Assembly: GCA_004525355.1 (NCBI GenBank)
Contig: SPCK01000025.1
Coordinates: forward strand, 1-12,865
DNA length: 12,865 nt
Direction of reading: 5' to 3'
Source: Spirochaetales bacterium
Lineage (GTDB): Bacteria > Spirochaetota > Spirochaetia > Treponematales > UBA12059
The translations under genes and the position numbers were made by a program. Shown one piece after another: positions 2,103-8,858 of this stretch (position 1 is its first letter; the number at the start of each line of letters is the position of its first letter). Under the pieces are notes generated by a model. The model was not told the DNA's origin. It did not search any database and was given only the letters and a program-made list of their open reading frames with translations.

Positions 2103-4658
2103 ATGCAGACCAAGAATCAGCGAGGCAATGAAACACCGATCCCCACCGCCGATCAGGAACTGGAAAAGTACGGCGTCTGGGTTAAGGCTGAACCTCAGGA
2201 TATTGTGGAAGAACCGGAGACCGAACACGAGTTCCTGTCCGGCTCGGAGGCCACGTTGCCATCATTCGATGATGAAACAGCCGATCTCGGCCTTCCTCAA
2301 TCCCCCGAAACAGAGGATCTGACTTTTGGCGATTTCGATTTGCCGGATGTCGACGAAGAGCCATCCCTCGAAGAGCCATCGGCCTTGGAGGAACTCGAAG
2401 GTGAGGAGATGTTCCCGTCCATCTCGGGCGACAGCTCCATCCTCGAAATCGAGACTATTGGCGGCGATGAAACCGAGGAACTGAGCATCGAAGAGCTTGA
2501 AAGCAACCTCGACGAGGATATAATCGACGACTCCGTCATCGATATCCCGCTTGATGAACTCGAGGAAAGCATTCCCGAGCCACGCAAGGTTCAGCCATCC
2601 GACGAGCCAAAGCCCGCTCCCGCTGCGAGTCAGGCAGCCGGCTCATGGGAAGCGGCCGAGGAAATCAGCTTGGAGGACTTCGGCTTCAGTGATGACAATG
2701 AGCCTCTTGCCCATACTCCTCCCTCGCAGTCGTTTCTATCGTCAGGAAGCGAATCCGGCGATGCGGAAGCGGTCGATTTGTCCGAATTCGGCATTGACGA
2801 GGATATGGGAAAATCGGCGGAAGCCCCCGCCTCGGATGAATTCGAAGCCATTGACATAGATCTACAGTTCGACGACACGATCCCCGCCCCCGCCGATTCC
2901 GGCGAGGAAGGATTCTCGAACTTCTCTCTTGAAGACGTCGAGGATGTCAGCGACCTTGAACAGATCCCCAGCTCGTCATCCGCGATGGAAGACGTCACCG
3001 CAGATTTCGATAACCTTTCAGTTTCAAGCGTTTCTTCCCCGGCCGCCAAACCAGCAGAATCCCGAGCAGGTCTCGACTCTTTCATAGACAGTGAAACCGA
3101 TTCGGACGAGGACCTCCTTCCCGCGCTCGAGGAAGAAGAAGTCCGGCTGGACGCGAAATCGGGTAGATCTGCTGGATTCGACGACGTGCATGCCGTGGAA
3201 TCCGAGCTTGCTGGCGGTTCTCGGGGCAAACCCAGTGTTGAAGCCCCTTCCTCTGACCTCCTCAAGACGATAGCCGCCGAGCTTTCCGCAATCAAGGACG
3301 AATTGGTCAGCATGAGGAGCCAGCTCGGTTCGATGAAGGCTGCCCGGCCTCAGGAATCGGAAGAAATTCCGACGGATGAGGAAGCCGCAGGAGGATTCTT
3401 CGACGAAGAAGAAGACGACACCATTGCGCTTACGGGCGACGAACTGGATAACATTCTCAATACAGCCGACTTCACCGAGGAATCAGCATCGGGCGGCGAT
3501 GATCTCGTCGACGAGACCGTCCAGGATATCCTTCCAGAGAACGGTGATTACTCCAAGGCGGATGCTACCGGCATCGAGCCCTTCGGCCTGGATATCGAGG
3601 TCGAAGAATCCGCTCCTGTCGCCCATGAGCTGGCGCCCGGAATAAACCACGAAAACATCGAGGTTACTCCGCTTACCGAACTCACTGAAGACACCAGCTA
3701 TCTCGAGGCAGACGAAGATCTACCGGATATTGATAGCGATTTGGAAGGCGATTCCCTGGTCGAACAACCCCTGGTCGAGCCTGATGAAGCAGATCTCATC
3801 ATGGAATCCGACGAGGCCGTTCTGGTATCCGCGACCGACTTCCTTGAAGAAAGCCTCCCGGAGTTGGAAAGCGGCGATGAGCTGGATCTTGACGAAGAAG
3901 ATCTGGACGAATTGGTTCTCTCCATCGACGGGGCTGAAACGTCCACTCCGACGGCCGCAGTCGCCGAGACTCCCATCAACGAAATCGAGGATGATTTCTC
4001 GACGCTCGAAGAGCTGGGCGCGGATGACGAGCCGTACGACTACGACCTGCACAGCGAGGAAAGCGCCAACTTGACCGGGGACGAGCTTTCCGAAGGCGAC
4101 ATGGATCTTCTCGAGCTGGAAGAAGTCGAGGAACTCGAGGCGGTGGAAGAAACGAGCTTCGAGGACATGGATCGCGATGTTATCAAGCCATCCCAGCCGG
4201 TAGACGTTCATCCGGACGAGATCGCCATGACCCTGGACGATTCCTTCTTCGTGGAACCGGAAGAAAAGAAGCTGGAGCTGTCAGCGCCTTCCTCGATACA
4301 GATGCCCTCTTTTGGTTCATCGACACCGAGCGAGGCGGAAACTCCCTTCGAGGAGATTGAAGCAATTCCTGATTTCAATCAGGCGCCGCAAGAAATCGGC
4401 CCGATTGAAGAGCTTGAGCCGATGGCGCCTCCCAAACCCGCAGTGAAAAAACCAGCGGCCGCCAAGGCGGAACCCGTGCCCACAGCGATAAAGGCCGACT
4501 CTCCGGTACCGGACAAGCTCAAGGGCGACATCAAATCGGTACTGGTATACCTTGACCAGCTGCTCGCATCGCTTCCAGAAGAAAAGATCGAGGAATTCGC
4601 CTCTTCCGAGTACTACGAGACCTATAGAAAACTCTTTGACGAACTGGGGTTGCTCTGA
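2103..4658 (+). CDS. Large acidic low-complexity protein with conserved ends
   Basis: An 851-residue protein extremely rich in Glu, Asp, Ser and Leu, with no signal peptide or membrane segment, so presumably cytoplasmic. It looks modular. The N-terminus carries a compact motif, ELEKYGVWVKAEPQDIVEEP, at 19-38. The body has degenerate short acidic motifs: ISLEDFGFSDD 188-198, VDLSEFGIDED 224-234, FSNFSLEDVED 271-281, and LTGDEL twice at 443-448 and 657-662. A probable coiled coil lies at 384-413 (LLKTIAAELSAIKDELVSMR). A Pro/Ala/Lys hinge spans 771-803. The C-terminal helical module, 804-851, contains VYLDQLLASLPEEKIEEF and ends in FDELGLL. The ordered ends around a disordered acidic body suggest a scaffold or hub binding partners through repeated linear motifs. 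That is inference. GGAG at 2089-2092 is 10 nt before the ATG. It is first in the operon and the next gene starts 1 nt after its stop. Confidence 0.85.
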   Translation: MQTKNQRGNETPIPTADQELEKYGVWVKAEPQDIVEEPETEHEFLSGSEATLPSFDDETADLGLPQSPETEDLTFGDFDLPDVDEEPSLEEPSALEELEGEEMFPSISGDSSILEIETIGGDETEELSIEELESNLDEDIIDDSVIDIPLDELEESIPEPRKVQPSDEPKPAPAASQAAGSWEAAEEISLEDFGFSDDNEPLAHTPPSQSFLSSGSESGDAEAVDLSEFGIDEDMGKSAEAPASDEFEAIDIDLQFDDTIPAPADSGEEGFSNFSLEDVEDVSDLEQIPSSSSAMEDVTADFDNLSVSSVSSPAAKPAESRAGLDSFIDSETDSDEDLLPALEEEEVRLDAKSGRSAGFDDVHAVESELAGGSRGKPSVEAPSSDLLKTIAAELSAIKDELVSMRSQLGSMKAARPQESEEIPTDEEAAGGFFDEEEDDTIALTGDELDNILNTADFTEESASGGDDLVDETVQDILPENGDYSKADATGIEPFGLDIEVEESAPVAHELAPGINHENIEVTPLTELTEDTSYLEADEDLPDIDSDLEGDSLVEQPLVEPDEADLIMESDEAVLVSATDFLEESLPELESGDELDLDEEDLDELVLSIDGAETSTPTAAVAETPINEIEDDFSTLEELGADDEPYDYDLHSEESANLTGDELSEGDMDLLELEEVEELEAVEETSFEDMDRDVIKPSQPVDVHPDEIAMTLDDSFFVEPEEKKLELSAPSSIQMPSFGSSTPSEAETPFEEIEAIPDFNQAPQEIGPIEELEPMAPPKPAVKKPAAAKAEPVPTAIKADSPVPDKLKGDIKSVLVYLDQLLASLPEEKIEEFASSEYYETYRKLFDELGLL

Positions 4659-4659
4659 T

Positions 4660-5609
4660 ATGGGATTACTCGATAAAGCGTCCAAGAGCCGCCGACCGGC
4701 TATGGCTGGCGGGCTTTTGGCTCTGACCGAAAAAAAAAAGCGCTGATCGCGACAAAACCGGTCATTGAAGTTCGGCGTAATCCATCTCCTGCTCGATTAG
4801 CCACAGCCTTGGCGGCCATCGACCACCATTATCTCTACCCCTTCCTGGCCGCAGAAGCGTTCGCAGAATTTTCCGCCGATGATCGCGGCGCACTCTACTG
4901 CCTTTCCGATGAACGATACATTCCCGTTTCCTGGTACGGCCATGGCTTCTCCGACACCAATCCACCTGATCTGGACAAGGATACCATCCTGGCCATCCTC
5001 GATGAGGCAGAGGATGGCAGGGCAAGGTCCTTCGTACCCGCATGGGGAGAGAGCTTGGTGTCCCTTGAACTCATGACCGACCGCGAGATGATACTGGTTC
5101 GCTCGCCAGGCAATGAGGTGTTTCAGGCGTCTCTCGCGATCCGCTTGGCAGCCATGGAATTCCGCACCACGCGATTACATGGCGATCTGCCAGCGACCCT
5201 GTCACCGGACAACTATTTTTCCGCATTGCGCGCGGATCCGGGTTCCCGCTGTGCCCTCGAGGCCGGTATCTATGAACTGAACCTGGAACCATTCGTTTCA
5301 TGGTGCGTATCGGTATGTCCGCATGCACAACGGGCTTTTTTCCTTCTGGATTTCCTGCGTTTCCTGCAGGCTGTCGCGCACGATACGGCCACTGTACGGT
5401 CGACTGAACAAGAATCGGCTATCATCTCGCATTTTTCTCCGCGAGCTGCCGATCCCGAGCTCTTGGGATTCCAACTGGCTGCCTCCATGCATCGCGTTTT
5501 TGCGGCGCCCGCCAATACGATCCCGCACATTGAATCCTTCATTTCCATAGACCTTAGAGAATCCGGTTCTGCAAACCTCCTTGCGAGTTTCCTTTCAGAA
5601 AGACGATGA
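4660..5609 (+). CDS. Unrecognised protein made by a -1 frameshift at A10
   Basis: Read with a -1 shift at 4734-4740 this gives a 316-residue protein: 27 residues from the ATG at 4660, then 289 residues in the -1 frame to the TGA at 5607-5609. Without the shift, translation ends at TGA 4744-4746 after a 28-residue peptide (MGLLDKASKSRRPA... ending EKKKR). The -1 frame has no ATG or GTG start before its conserved-looking body. It closes upstream at TAA 4674-4676, and its only early options are CTG 4743 and TTG 4809, neither with a ribosome site. The ATG at 4660 is 1 nt after the upstream stop. The body starts IDHHYLYPFLAAEAFAEF and includes a helical, Cys-containing part near the middle (RAFFLLDFLRFLQAV). 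There is no membrane segment and no family I can name. The ATGA overlap with the DUF115 gene implies coupling. Alternatives are phase variation or a missing A in the assembly. Confidence 0.7.
4730..4746 (+). other. A10 slippery site followed by zero-frame stop
   Basis: Ten consecutive A (4730-4739) followed by G give, in the frame of the ATG at 4660, the codons GAA AAA AAA AAG CGC TGA. The last part is the heptamer A AAA AAG (4734-4740), the same as the -1 slippery site of E. coli dnaX, with the zero-frame stop two codons later. A run of this length is also prone to RNA-polymerase slippage (insertion of one A restores the frame) and to replication slippage. I found no convincing downstream stem-loop or upstream Shine-Dalgarno stimulator by eye, which favours transcriptional slippage over the full dnaX mechanism. 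Confidence 0.6.
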
Positions 5610-7162
5610 ACATGCCGCGGACAGCCTCGCCCGCACCAGACAGTACCATGGCGCCTTCTTCATTCCACTCCCGGTACGCACCCGACAGGGAGGCTTTTCG
5701 GCTAGTCGAATCAATGCTGTCCGGACGCCATCCGTCTGCCGTCATCATACTGGGAGGAGGACTGAACTACCTGTCCAAGGCCTTCAAGGCCAGCCTGCCA
5801 GGATCGAGGACCGTACTCCTTCAGCCCAGTGATATATTTGATTCCGAATCCGTTGAAAAATCCGACTTTACATGGTCGCCCTCTTCCTCGCAGACTCCGG
5901 ATACCTTTCTGGGCCAGGCCCTTGGGGACGGAAAGGCCGCTGGAGGAATCGTAGTCCTTGAATGGCCCCCGGTGATGCAACGCTTCGCTGAAATGGGAGC
6001 CTTCCTTCGTAGAACCGTAGCGGATTATCTGGAGCGTCTTTCGTCCTCTTCCGCAACCACATCGTATTGGGCGCGTCGATGGCTCAGAAACTCGTTGCGC
6101 TTTTGCATGGGTGAAAACATCCATGCGACGATAAAGCCTGGAGCTGGGCCGATCGTGATTGCCTGCGCCGGTCCCGGGCTCCGGGAATCGCTGCCCCTGC
6201 TAGGAAAATCGGGCACGTCGGTATGGGCCCTGGCCTCCGCCCAGGAGGCGCTTGCCGCGTTCGGAATACGGCCCGACCTCGTTCTGGCAACCGATCCAGG
6301 CCATTGGAACAGCCTGCACTTGCGGCAGGAACTGATCCAACGCGTTCCGTTCGCCCTGCCTCCCAGTGCATCGGTACCTGCAGCCTTATTTGGGGGAGAG
6401 CAACTCCTCGTTCCCCTGGACACTGGCTTGGCTTTCGAGACCATGGCCATACGCGCGGCCGGGAGCCAGCCCGTAGAGGCCGCGACCGCAGGTACGGCTG
6501 CGGGTACAGCCATTTCGCTCGCCCTGCGGGCCACGACGGGCTCCGTATTCGTCGCCGGCCTCGATCTGGCAGCCCGTGGACTTCGCGCCCATGCCAATCC
6601 TTACGCACTGGATAGCGTCGACTTGGCCATGTCGACCCGATTGCGCCCCGAACACCACCTGCGGCACGATCTCATATTCGAGCGCTACCCGGAAACGATC
6701 GGAAGCTGGCGCGTGTCGAGAGCCTTCAAATCCTACTCGTCAACCATCTGCGCATCGGGTTTTGATGCCGGCAGGACCTACAGGATCAGTGATTCCCCGG
6801 TTCCGACCATGCTTTCCCGAATGTCACCGGAGCGTGCGTACGAAATTTGTTCCACCGGCCTCCAACTTCCATCTATCGTTCCGCAGGGTATGCGTGGCGA
6901 TTCGAGCGACCGAGTAAGGGCCTTCGCGGCGCTCCTCGTGGAACTTGCCGATCGCCTTTCCCGCCGGGCACGGGAAGCCACAGAGAGCGGGCAATACTTC
7001 GCGACCGACGAGGCAACCAGTCTGCTCGCTCTGGCGGGCAGGAATGCCGCGCCCTTGATAGCGCAGGCAGCGCGGAAAACGATCCAGAAAGCCAGCGTCG
7101 ACCTCGCCCTGGCCGGCCTTGAACGGGGCCTGGGAGCATTCCTGGAGCTGTGCAATGCTTGA
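5606..7162 (+). CDS. DUF115 / Maf-like protein, first paralogue
   Basis: A 518-residue protein of the DUF115 family (MptE-like; includes the motility-associated Maf proteins). The N-terminal part has a Rossmann-like strand-glycine motif, AVIILGGGLNYLSKAF at 45-60. The DUF115 core follows: VIACAGPGLRESL at 184-196, then FGIRPDLVLATDPGHW at 219-234 with the key 'GI.PD..v..D' signature, then VFVAGLDLA at 314-322. Maf proteins in epsilonproteobacteria add nonulosonic acids to flagellin. Archaeal MptE is a pterin pyrophosphokinase, so the family name alone does not fix the substrate. The usual GPSL motif is GPGL here, a possible sign of divergence. The start overlaps the previous stop as ATGA; ATG at 5612 is an alternative. 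The next gene overlaps by 8 nt. The pair may act as one complex, which is inference. Confidence 0.8.
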   Translation: MNMPRTASPAPDSTMAPSSFHSRYAPDREAFRLVESMLSGRHPSAVIILGGGLNYLSKAFKASLPGSRTVLLQPSDIFDSESVEKSDFTWSPSSSQTPDTFLGQALGDGKAAGGIVVLEWPPVMQRFAEMGAFLRRTVADYLERLSSSSATTSYWARRWLRNSLRFCMGENIHATIKPGAGPIVIACAGPGLRESLPLLGKSGTSVWALASAQEALAAFGIRPDLVLATDPGHWNSLHLRQELIQRVPFALPPSASVPAALFGGEQLLVPLDTGLAFETMAIRAAGSQPVEAATAGTAAGTAISLALRATTGSVFVAGLDLAARGLRAHANPYALDSVDLAMSTRLRPEHHLRHDLIFERYPETIGSWRVSRAFKSYSSTICASGFDAGRTYRISDSPVPTMLSRMSPERAYEICSTGLQLPSIVPQGMRGDSSDRVRAFAALLVELADRLSRRAREATESGQYFATDEATSLLALAGRNAAPLIAQAARKTIQKASVDLALAGLERGLGAFLELCNA

Positions 7163-8858
7163 TCCTGCGTTGTTTGAACGGAATATGCTTGCGATCGCGT
7201 CGACGCATCCCGTGTCCTCAGCCGAACGATTGCGAGCCGCCATCGCGGACACCCGCCTTGGCATGGACGTCGCCAGGGACGGATCGCCCGTTCCGTACAT
7301 GGACTATGGAGGAAGGCGCGGCTACCTCCATTCCAGGGTCGATCCAGCCCACGAGGCCGAACGGCTGGCGGCGCAATACGATTCGAGCGGTTTCTACGTT
7401 TTCCTCGGTCTGGGCGCCGGCTATCTTGCACGGGCCATCCTGAACGCCGATCGCCTGAGCAGGGGTATCATCGTCGAGTATCGCGCGGGAACGCTCCGAG
7501 CCCTTCTCGAGCGTCTTGACCTGACCAGGGTACTTGCGGACAGGCGCCTCTGCCTCCTGGTCGATCCGGATCCGGATGAGTTGGGCAGGGCCATCATGGA
7601 GCGATACGTTCCGGCAGTGAGCGGCGACCTCATAACGGTACCACTGGCAAGCCGGGTAAATGCCGAATCGGAGCGATTTCAGCAGGCGGCCGGGGTCGTC
7701 CGATCCGTACTGGCAAGAGTGTCCGACGACTACTCTGTACAAGCGTTTTTCGGCAAGCGCTGGTTCGCTAACATCGTACGCAACCTGAGGTCAGCCGCAG
7801 GAGCGACGCCTCCGGTCGGCCCGATCAGGGAGGCCGCAGTAACGGCGGCCGGGCCGTCGCTTGAGAACTCCCTGGAGGAGTTGGCCGCCAGGCCGCGGGG
7901 CCGATTCCTCATCGCCACGGACACGAGCCTGTGCGCCATCACAAGCGGCGGCATCATTCCTGACGCTGTGGTATCCATCGACTGCCAACACATCAGCTAT
8001 TATCATTTCATGGGCGGCATACCGGCCGACGTTCCCCTGTTTCTGGATCTGGCCTCCCCTCCGACCCTGGCTCGGCTGGTTAAGCAACCGTATTTTTTTA
8101 CGTCAGGGCATCCGCTCGCGCGCTACGTTGCGTCCAGGCTCAGGGCGTTTCCCCAACTGGATACTTCGGGCGGCAACGTGACCCACGCCGCGGTATCGCT
8201 TGCCGAATACCTCGGAGCCTCGACCGTGGATGTCTACGGCGCGGACTTCTCCTATCCCCTTGGCAAAAGCTATGCGCGCGGAACCTATATTTATTCGTAT
8301 TTCGACATTCGGCAATCCAGGACGACTCCGCAGGAAGGTCTGTTCGCGGACTTCCTGTTCCGCAACCAGGCGCTCAAGCGCCAGGCGGACGATGCGAAAT
8401 CATTCCGCTACCTGACCAAGCCGCTCGAAGCGTACCTCGAACGACTGGAGCGACTGGCCGAAGGTTCGGCCACCACAATACGCAGGCACCGCAAGCAAGG
8501 TGCTCCTTCGAGAACGGATTACCCGGGCGCGGTGGCTCGCGCGCCGGCTCCCGCAAGAATGGGGCGAATGTTCGCAGCGGGTCGCTCCTTCCAGAGCCCG
8601 GAGAAATTCCTGTCCTCATACCTGTCAGACCTCCAAGCGCTCCCCGCCCCGCCCCGTTCTGGCAAGGCAAGCGAGGCGGCCCTGTACCTGGACGGCCTGG
8701 AAGCGGAATCCCGCGATGTCTGGACGACACTCCTGCCCGCAGTGGCCGCGTTCAGAAGGGAAGCGGGGGCAGGACCTTCGAGCGGCAAACGAGTATTGTC
8801 CGATACCAGGGAGTGGAGCGTCGAAGTCGTTCGCGAGGAACTCAAGGCGCTTTCGTAA
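7155..8858 (+). CDS. DUF115 / Maf-like protein, second paralogue
   Basis: A 567-residue protein with the more canonical DUF115 architecture. The N-terminal Rossmann-like region has FYVFLGLGAGYLARAIL at 80-96 followed by an acidic strand end (GIIVEY). The core has AAGPSLENSL at 231-240, GGIIPDAVVSIDCQH at 265-279 and VDVYGADFSYPLG at 358-370. A helical C-terminal region (about 400-567) includes a basic linker near 441-456. The ATG at 7155 is chosen because GGAG at 7144-7147 lies 7 nt upstream and it overlaps the previous stop by 8 nt; a TTG at 7119 has no such support. The motif set suggests a nucleotide-sugar or pyrophosphate chemistry enzyme, and by analogy with Maf it may glycosylate flagellin or another surface protein. 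The sugar and target cannot be told from sequence. It is the last gene of the operon and converges on the lipoprotein gene with six bases between the stops. Confidence 0.85.
   Translation: MLDPALFERNMLAIASTHPVSSAERLRAAIADTRLGMDVARDGSPVPYMDYGGRRGYLHSRVDPAHEAERLAAQYDSSGFYVFLGLGAGYLARAILNADRLSRGIIVEYRAGTLRALLERLDLTRVLADRRLCLLVDPDPDELGRAIMERYVPAVSGDLITVPLASRVNAESERFQQAAGVVRSVLARVSDDYSVQAFFGKRWFANIVRNLRSAAGATPPVGPIREAAVTAAGPSLENSLEELAARPRGRFLIATDTSLCAITSGGIIPDAVVSIDCQHISYYHFMGGIPADVPLFLDLASPPTLARLVKQPYFFTSGHPLARYVASRLRAFPQLDTSGGNVTHAAVSLAEYLGASTVDVYGADFSYPLGKSYARGTYIYSYFDIRQSRTTPQEGLFADFLFRNQALKRQADDAKSFRYLTKPLEAYLERLERLAEGSATTIRRHRKQGAPSRTDYPGAVARAPAPARMGRMFAAGRSFQSPEKFLSSYLSDLQALPAPPRSGKASEAALYLDGLEAESRDVWTTLLPAVAAFRREAGAGPSSGKRVLSDTREWSVEVVREELKALS

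Follow-up and report, generated by a model that had tools for sequence, protein, structure and literature searches.

The window analysed here is a stretch of 12,865 nucleotides from a Spirochaetales assembly of 506 contigs, and all of the features described in it lie on the forward strand. An acidic ORF of 851 amino acids (2103..4658) ends with the TGA at 4656-4658, and one base past this stop the ATG at 4660 opens a zero-frame ORF of 28 amino acids (4660..4746, MGLLDKAS...GGLLALTEKKKR) closed by a TGA at 4744-4746. Towards its end this short frame passes through ten consecutive As (4730..4739) followed by a G at 4740, and reads GAA AAA AAA AAG CGC TGA, with the stop two codons past AAG. The long part of the gene, referred to here as the body, is in the -1 frame (4740..5609) and comprises 289 codons and the stop TGA at 5607-5609, which overlaps the start of the next gene in an ATGA (5606..5609). 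One extra A in the run joins the first 27 residues to the 289 of the body in a product of 316 amino acids. The preliminary description of this DNA had given the same ATG, short frame, -1 body, ATGA overlap, A10-G and 316-residue product, and each of these is exact, the positions to the base. The overlapping downstream gene encodes an MptE-like (DUF115) protein of 518 amino acids (5606..7162; PF01973, E 2.7e-12), and is followed by a second MptE-like (DUF115) gene of 579 amino acids (7119..8858; PF01973, E 1.2e-23), whose TTG start was taken from the mechanical ORF list. Elsewhere in the window, positions 485-1441 on the forward strand match the NCBIfam TP0183 family (E 2.5e-48), which is named after a Treponema pallidum protein.

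The body is predicted to consist of a GAF domain (4776..5180, about residues 13-147 of the structure model) and a GGDEF-like domain (5181..5606, about residues 148-289). The structure model agrees with both the GAF fold and the GGDEF fold, and the GG(D/E)EF active-site signature is absent from the body translation of the window. In a Foldseek search with the whole body model the best E-value was 4.6e-6 at a TM-score of 0.31, the whole-model TM-scores being low because the matches span two domains. Neither Pfam nor NCBIfam has a family for the body (Pfam gave weak matches at most among 30 relatives), and a search of a viral collection with the body returned no relative. PelD-like proteins carry a GAF domain and a degenerate GGDEF domain; the modelled body resembles them in predicted domain order, a GAF domain followed by a GGDEF-like domain lacking the signature.

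The run at 4730-4739 is the single A10 or T10 in the whole 2,651,838-base assembly, in which nine-A runs account for 15 overlapping window positions of the count and eight-A runs for 93. Searching 58 genomes with the body gave four relatives beyond the window's own genome, 22-36% identical, each of them split at an A10. Locus searches used a conserved anchor, the last 46 codons of the upstream acidic ORF (4518-4655), which was matched in 20 of the 23 genomes of the window's family, across all ten genera. All 20 locus-bearing genomes keep the run, as A10 in 18 and A9 in the other two, behind an N-terminal peptide of the MGLL, MSLL or MGLF type, and in 19 of them the body is out of frame: 17 have A10 with the body in -1, two (G020 and G017) have an A9 that leaves the body in +1, and the remaining genome has an A10 in frame (G005). 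Eleven As would place the body in frame at both the A10/-1 and the A9/+1 loci. Runs of ten As are scarce throughout the family's genomes, each having between 0 and 10 window positions, and four of them (G000, G003, G018 and G019) have no A10 besides the one at this locus. As the sole A10 or T10 of its assembly, with orthologous runs across the family, the run at the split locus is not a product of chance. In G004 the upstream ORF match on one contig (C64) is spread over two frames.

At the level of the order the anchor matched in 219 of 241 genomes, and at that of the class in 225 of 394. The 150 genomes examined comprised all 20 family loci and others among the matches listed, and were not a random draw; most are draft assemblies, largely metagenomic. 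The gene is frame-split at a run of 9-12 As in 56 of the 150, belonging to 17 of 33 families, which bears out for the homologues the expectation that the A run would be kept. These 56 loci are made up of 49 A10/-1, two A9/-1, one A11/-1, two A12/-1 and two A9/+1, so that a homopolymer of about nine or more sits at every frame junction (56/56), with a -1 shift at 54 of them (54 versus 2, p 4e-14, an indication only given shared ancestry). A run in frame occurs in 13 genomes (seven A10, four A11, one A12 and one A13), which means that the split is not always needed. In a further 70 genomes the gene is continuous and has no run of nine, and the last 10 loci were inspected singly: the gene was not seen there, was short, began at another start or ran off the end of a contig. 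Not one of these 80 run-less loci is frame-split. One more locus, in G059 (L145, family f5), was dropped from the frame-split count because it lacks the gene and has its run in the DUF115 gene. The Treponema-like families f3 and f4, together with f5, f38, f40 and f42, have a continuous gene without a run of nine wherever the gene was seen among the 150. In many run-less genomes an MGL peptide is fused to the body in one frame. Eighty named loci overlap the surveyed genomes and were kept out of the count; among those outside the window's family, the run is out of frame in L063, L072, L078 and L081 and in frame in L062, L070, L104 and L118. In L063, from the complete genome of Brucepastera parasyntrophica RmG11, the run is an out-of-frame A9 and the frame changes once more close to a T8 tract, for which reason this locus is set aside as proof.

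The preliminary description also raised an on/off switch. Read as phase variation, in which the DNA run mutates and the gene toggles between cells, this is improbable, since run length is near constant and the body is -1 in 54 of 56 split loci. In its favour, the homopolymer lies close to where the gene begins, as it does in contingency genes (PMC2831843), and run lengths of 9-13, the two A9/+1 members and the 13 in-frame members can be placed on the same side. Against them stand the A10 in 18 of 20 family members, the A10 in both of the near-identical versions of the locus found on two contigs of G004 (L042 and L046), and the shortage of in-frame runs: 13 of 69 where a third would be expected (p 0.006, again an indication only in view of shared ancestry). 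Seven of those 13 belong to the AT-rich families f16 and f27 (GC 0.22-0.34 at the locus), and without these two families in-frame runs fall to 6 of 62, still against about a third expected and in counts that share ancestry. That the split reflects an error of sequencing or assembly, or a pseudogene in decay, is very unlikely. The assemblies are mostly draft metagenomes, the two A9/+1 family members fit the loss of one A, and the body ORF is only 132 amino acids long in G012 (L012) and 179 in G003 (L016), both perhaps reduced or broken; the same split nevertheless recurs in 17 families and many assemblies, always at the run, and the remaining bodies are open for 259-418 codons except in G501, where a contig end leaves 120.

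A gene tree was built by a quick method from the divergent proteins of 130 of the 150 rows, leaving out those with no start found, G059, G012 and bodies below 170 amino acids. Explaining the frame-split label on this tree takes no fewer than 16 changes, compared with a mean of 41.5 for shuffled labels, and the starred branches force four. Judged from these sequences, the label is clustered yet has been gained or lost repeatedly. With this recurrent gain and loss, and with shared ancestry, the genome counts are not independent and the p-values are to be read as indications only.

The lack of a credible start for the body, claimed for the window in the preliminary description, extends to its relatives. 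The earliest ATG, GTG or TTG of the window's body is the TTG at 4809, 69 nt 3' of the run, and the 18 bases upstream of it hold no Shine-Dalgarno (SD)-like motif. Initiation there, with the short frame serving as a leader peptide, would agree with the position of this TTG, close to where the predicted GAF domain begins, and in G020 and G454 a body-frame TTG is present upstream of the run. Across 57 loci (the later-dropped G059 included), however, the first possible start past the run is scattered from 6 to 493 nt (median 113 nt), an SD-like motif precedes it in 4, and no start is conserved. A body-frame start codon upstream of the run was seen in three of the 57 (G020, G059 and G454), exceptions to the absence of an independent in-frame start in the homologues. 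An independent body start as the common rule was therefore rejected, and the single-frame fusion of the MGL peptide to the body in run-less genomes also speaks against it; we regard this reading as very improbable.

What is conserved at the junction is the length of the run. It is exactly ten in 49 of the 56 split loci, whereas its phase relative to the ATG (phase 1 in 41, phase 0 in 8 and phase 2 in 7) and the base that follows it (G in 38, C in 15 and T in 3) both vary. In most families AAA is a usual lysine codon (58 of 113 other lysine codons of the bodies in f1), but codon habit does not explain the A10 in the GC-rich families f18 and f44, which keep it although AAA makes up 0 of 11 and 1 of 10 of their other lysine codons. 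No other run of nine or more As was found within 50,639 nt of bodies.

The E. coli dnaX gene is subject to a -1 ribosomal frameshift at A_AAA_AAG, assisted by stimulators. The window resembles it in having the heptamer in phase with a zero-frame stop two codons on, as the preliminary description noted; the likeness holds for the window and does not extend to a conserved element, the heptamer being in phase in 27 of the 56 split loci, the window among them, and stimulators not being found as a rule. Programmed -1 frameshifting or sliding of ribosomes on the lysine run, in which the RNA would keep its ten As and tRNA-Lys would re-pair one base back, is the main alternative, though we think it unlikely to be the explanation. 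It agrees with the -1 direction in 54 of 56 loci, with the in-phase heptamer of the 27 and with A_AAA_AAA, which fits inside an A10 whatever the phase, and Koutmou et al. can be cited in its support. Upstream SD-like 5-mers are in slight excess (5/56 versus 2.5% of control windows), SD-like 4-mers occur in 8/56 (control 10.9%), and downstream folds have a mean z of -0.41, with z below -2 in six of the 56; the weak 5-mer excess and these six folds would be compatible with stimulated ribosomal shifting at a small part of the loci. Neither the heptamer, nor SD-like sites, nor downstream folds could be retained as a common denominator. The length near ten is held whatever the phase and next base, and although the heptamer needs just six or seven As, no split gene with fewer than nine was found in the survey of 150.

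The split at this site is real and conserved, and on comparative sequence grounds it very probably functions as a change of frame that joins the MGLL peptide to the body. The best explanation appears to be a programmed change of frame through slippage of RNA polymerase on the ten-A run, to which we give a probability of about 0.64. It is favoured over a dnaX-type shift because a length close to ten is retained through changes of phase and of the following base, and it fits the -1 state of 54 of the 56 loci because one added A restores the body frame. A single extra A in the RNA, offered in the preliminary description as the alternative to a -1 slip, suits the data better than a shift at the heptamer, the long run being the conserved element. 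In E. coli homopolymers, insertions are mostly of one nucleotide and deletions are rare (Traverse and Ochman, PMC5574713), and the RNA:DNA hybrid of RNA polymerase is 9-10 bp, as stated for Thermus in PMC5009743. The match between this hybrid and a run of near ten was counted in favour of slippage. Against it are the split loci that depart from A10/-1 (the two A9/+1 family members, two A9/-1, one A11 and two A12), the 13 in-frame runs and the fact that every A10 is slippery for ribosomes too.

Slippage of RNA polymerase on the A10 would give a share of transcripts one extra A, and standard translation of these would yield the 316-residue protein, consisting of the MGLL peptide, KKK, the GAF domain and the GGDEF-like domain. 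Full-length translation would bring ribosomes to the overlapping DUF115 start, and unslipped transcripts would give the 28-residue peptide alone. We infer the transcriptional nature of the event, the product ratio and any effect on DUF115 expression. The fixed ratio of peptide to protein suggested in the preliminary description, with an influence on the coupled DUF115 gene, is plausible. A broader and tentative proposal, which we would not yet call probable, is that A10 slippage works as a valve with a given setting, which may depend on conditions, between a GAF/GGDEF-like sensor and its free N-terminal peptide, governs DUF115 translation through the overlap, and operates in many families of the class with the same A10 signal as in some dnaX genes.

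To our knowledge, programmed slippage in bacterial cellular genes is known from few cases. In Shigella, spa13 has a short first frame, a slippage-dependent extension and an effect on an adjacent or overlapping downstream gene (PMC5009743), and mxiE yields a longer product by programmed transcriptional slippage (PMC1088944). The spirochaete locus shares with these the short first frame, an extension that would come through slippage and the overlapping downstream gene; it differs in gene and host, in its presence in 17 of 33 families and in a run of ten in 49 of 56 loci. Transcriptional slippage with inserted As also occurs at an A9 in dnaX of Thermus thermophilus, as PMC1088944 and PMC5009743 describe. 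There the long product is made without slippage, whereas in the spirochaete split gene it would depend on it. No literature on the spirochaete A10 site was found in the searches made; the GeneTack survey (PMC3711429), one of whose tables has a row for Spirochaetes, may list the gene.

Across 17 of 33 spirochaete families the site has been kept, gained or lost, and ten As persist in 49 of 56 loci while phase and flanks change. This constant length amid changing phase and flanking bases provides a natural series for the requirements of slippage. Automatic annotation would be expected to mislabel the gene as a pseudogene or to miss its N-terminus.

The window's family also has A10 runs in dnaX, a likeness to the Thermus gene. 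dnaX was located 20 times in the 23 family genomes, though the window's own assembly gave no match at the chosen cut-off; 19 of the 20 were readable, the one in G002 being unreadable by the motif used, and the identity of four was checked against NCBIfam. Eight of the 19 (L277, L278, L279, L282, L284, L286, L288 and L294) have an in-frame A10, followed by G, C or T, after which one added A brings a stop within 0-1 codons. The other 11 are without this signal: in G001 the A10 lacks a stop close by, and an A10 is absent from the remaining ten. The genomes of nine of these ten do carry the split gene, which indicates that the dnaX signal and the split-gene site are not strictly paired; the tenth (G010) has no anchor match. 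The eight dnaX loci with the signal were counted towards polymerase slippage at the split gene, and the 11 lacking it against. The ftsK genes (Pfam FtsK_SpoIIIE; L256 and L266) of two family members likewise contain an in-frame A10, about 320-400 codons into the frame, and in L256 one added A leads almost immediately to a stop in the visible flank.
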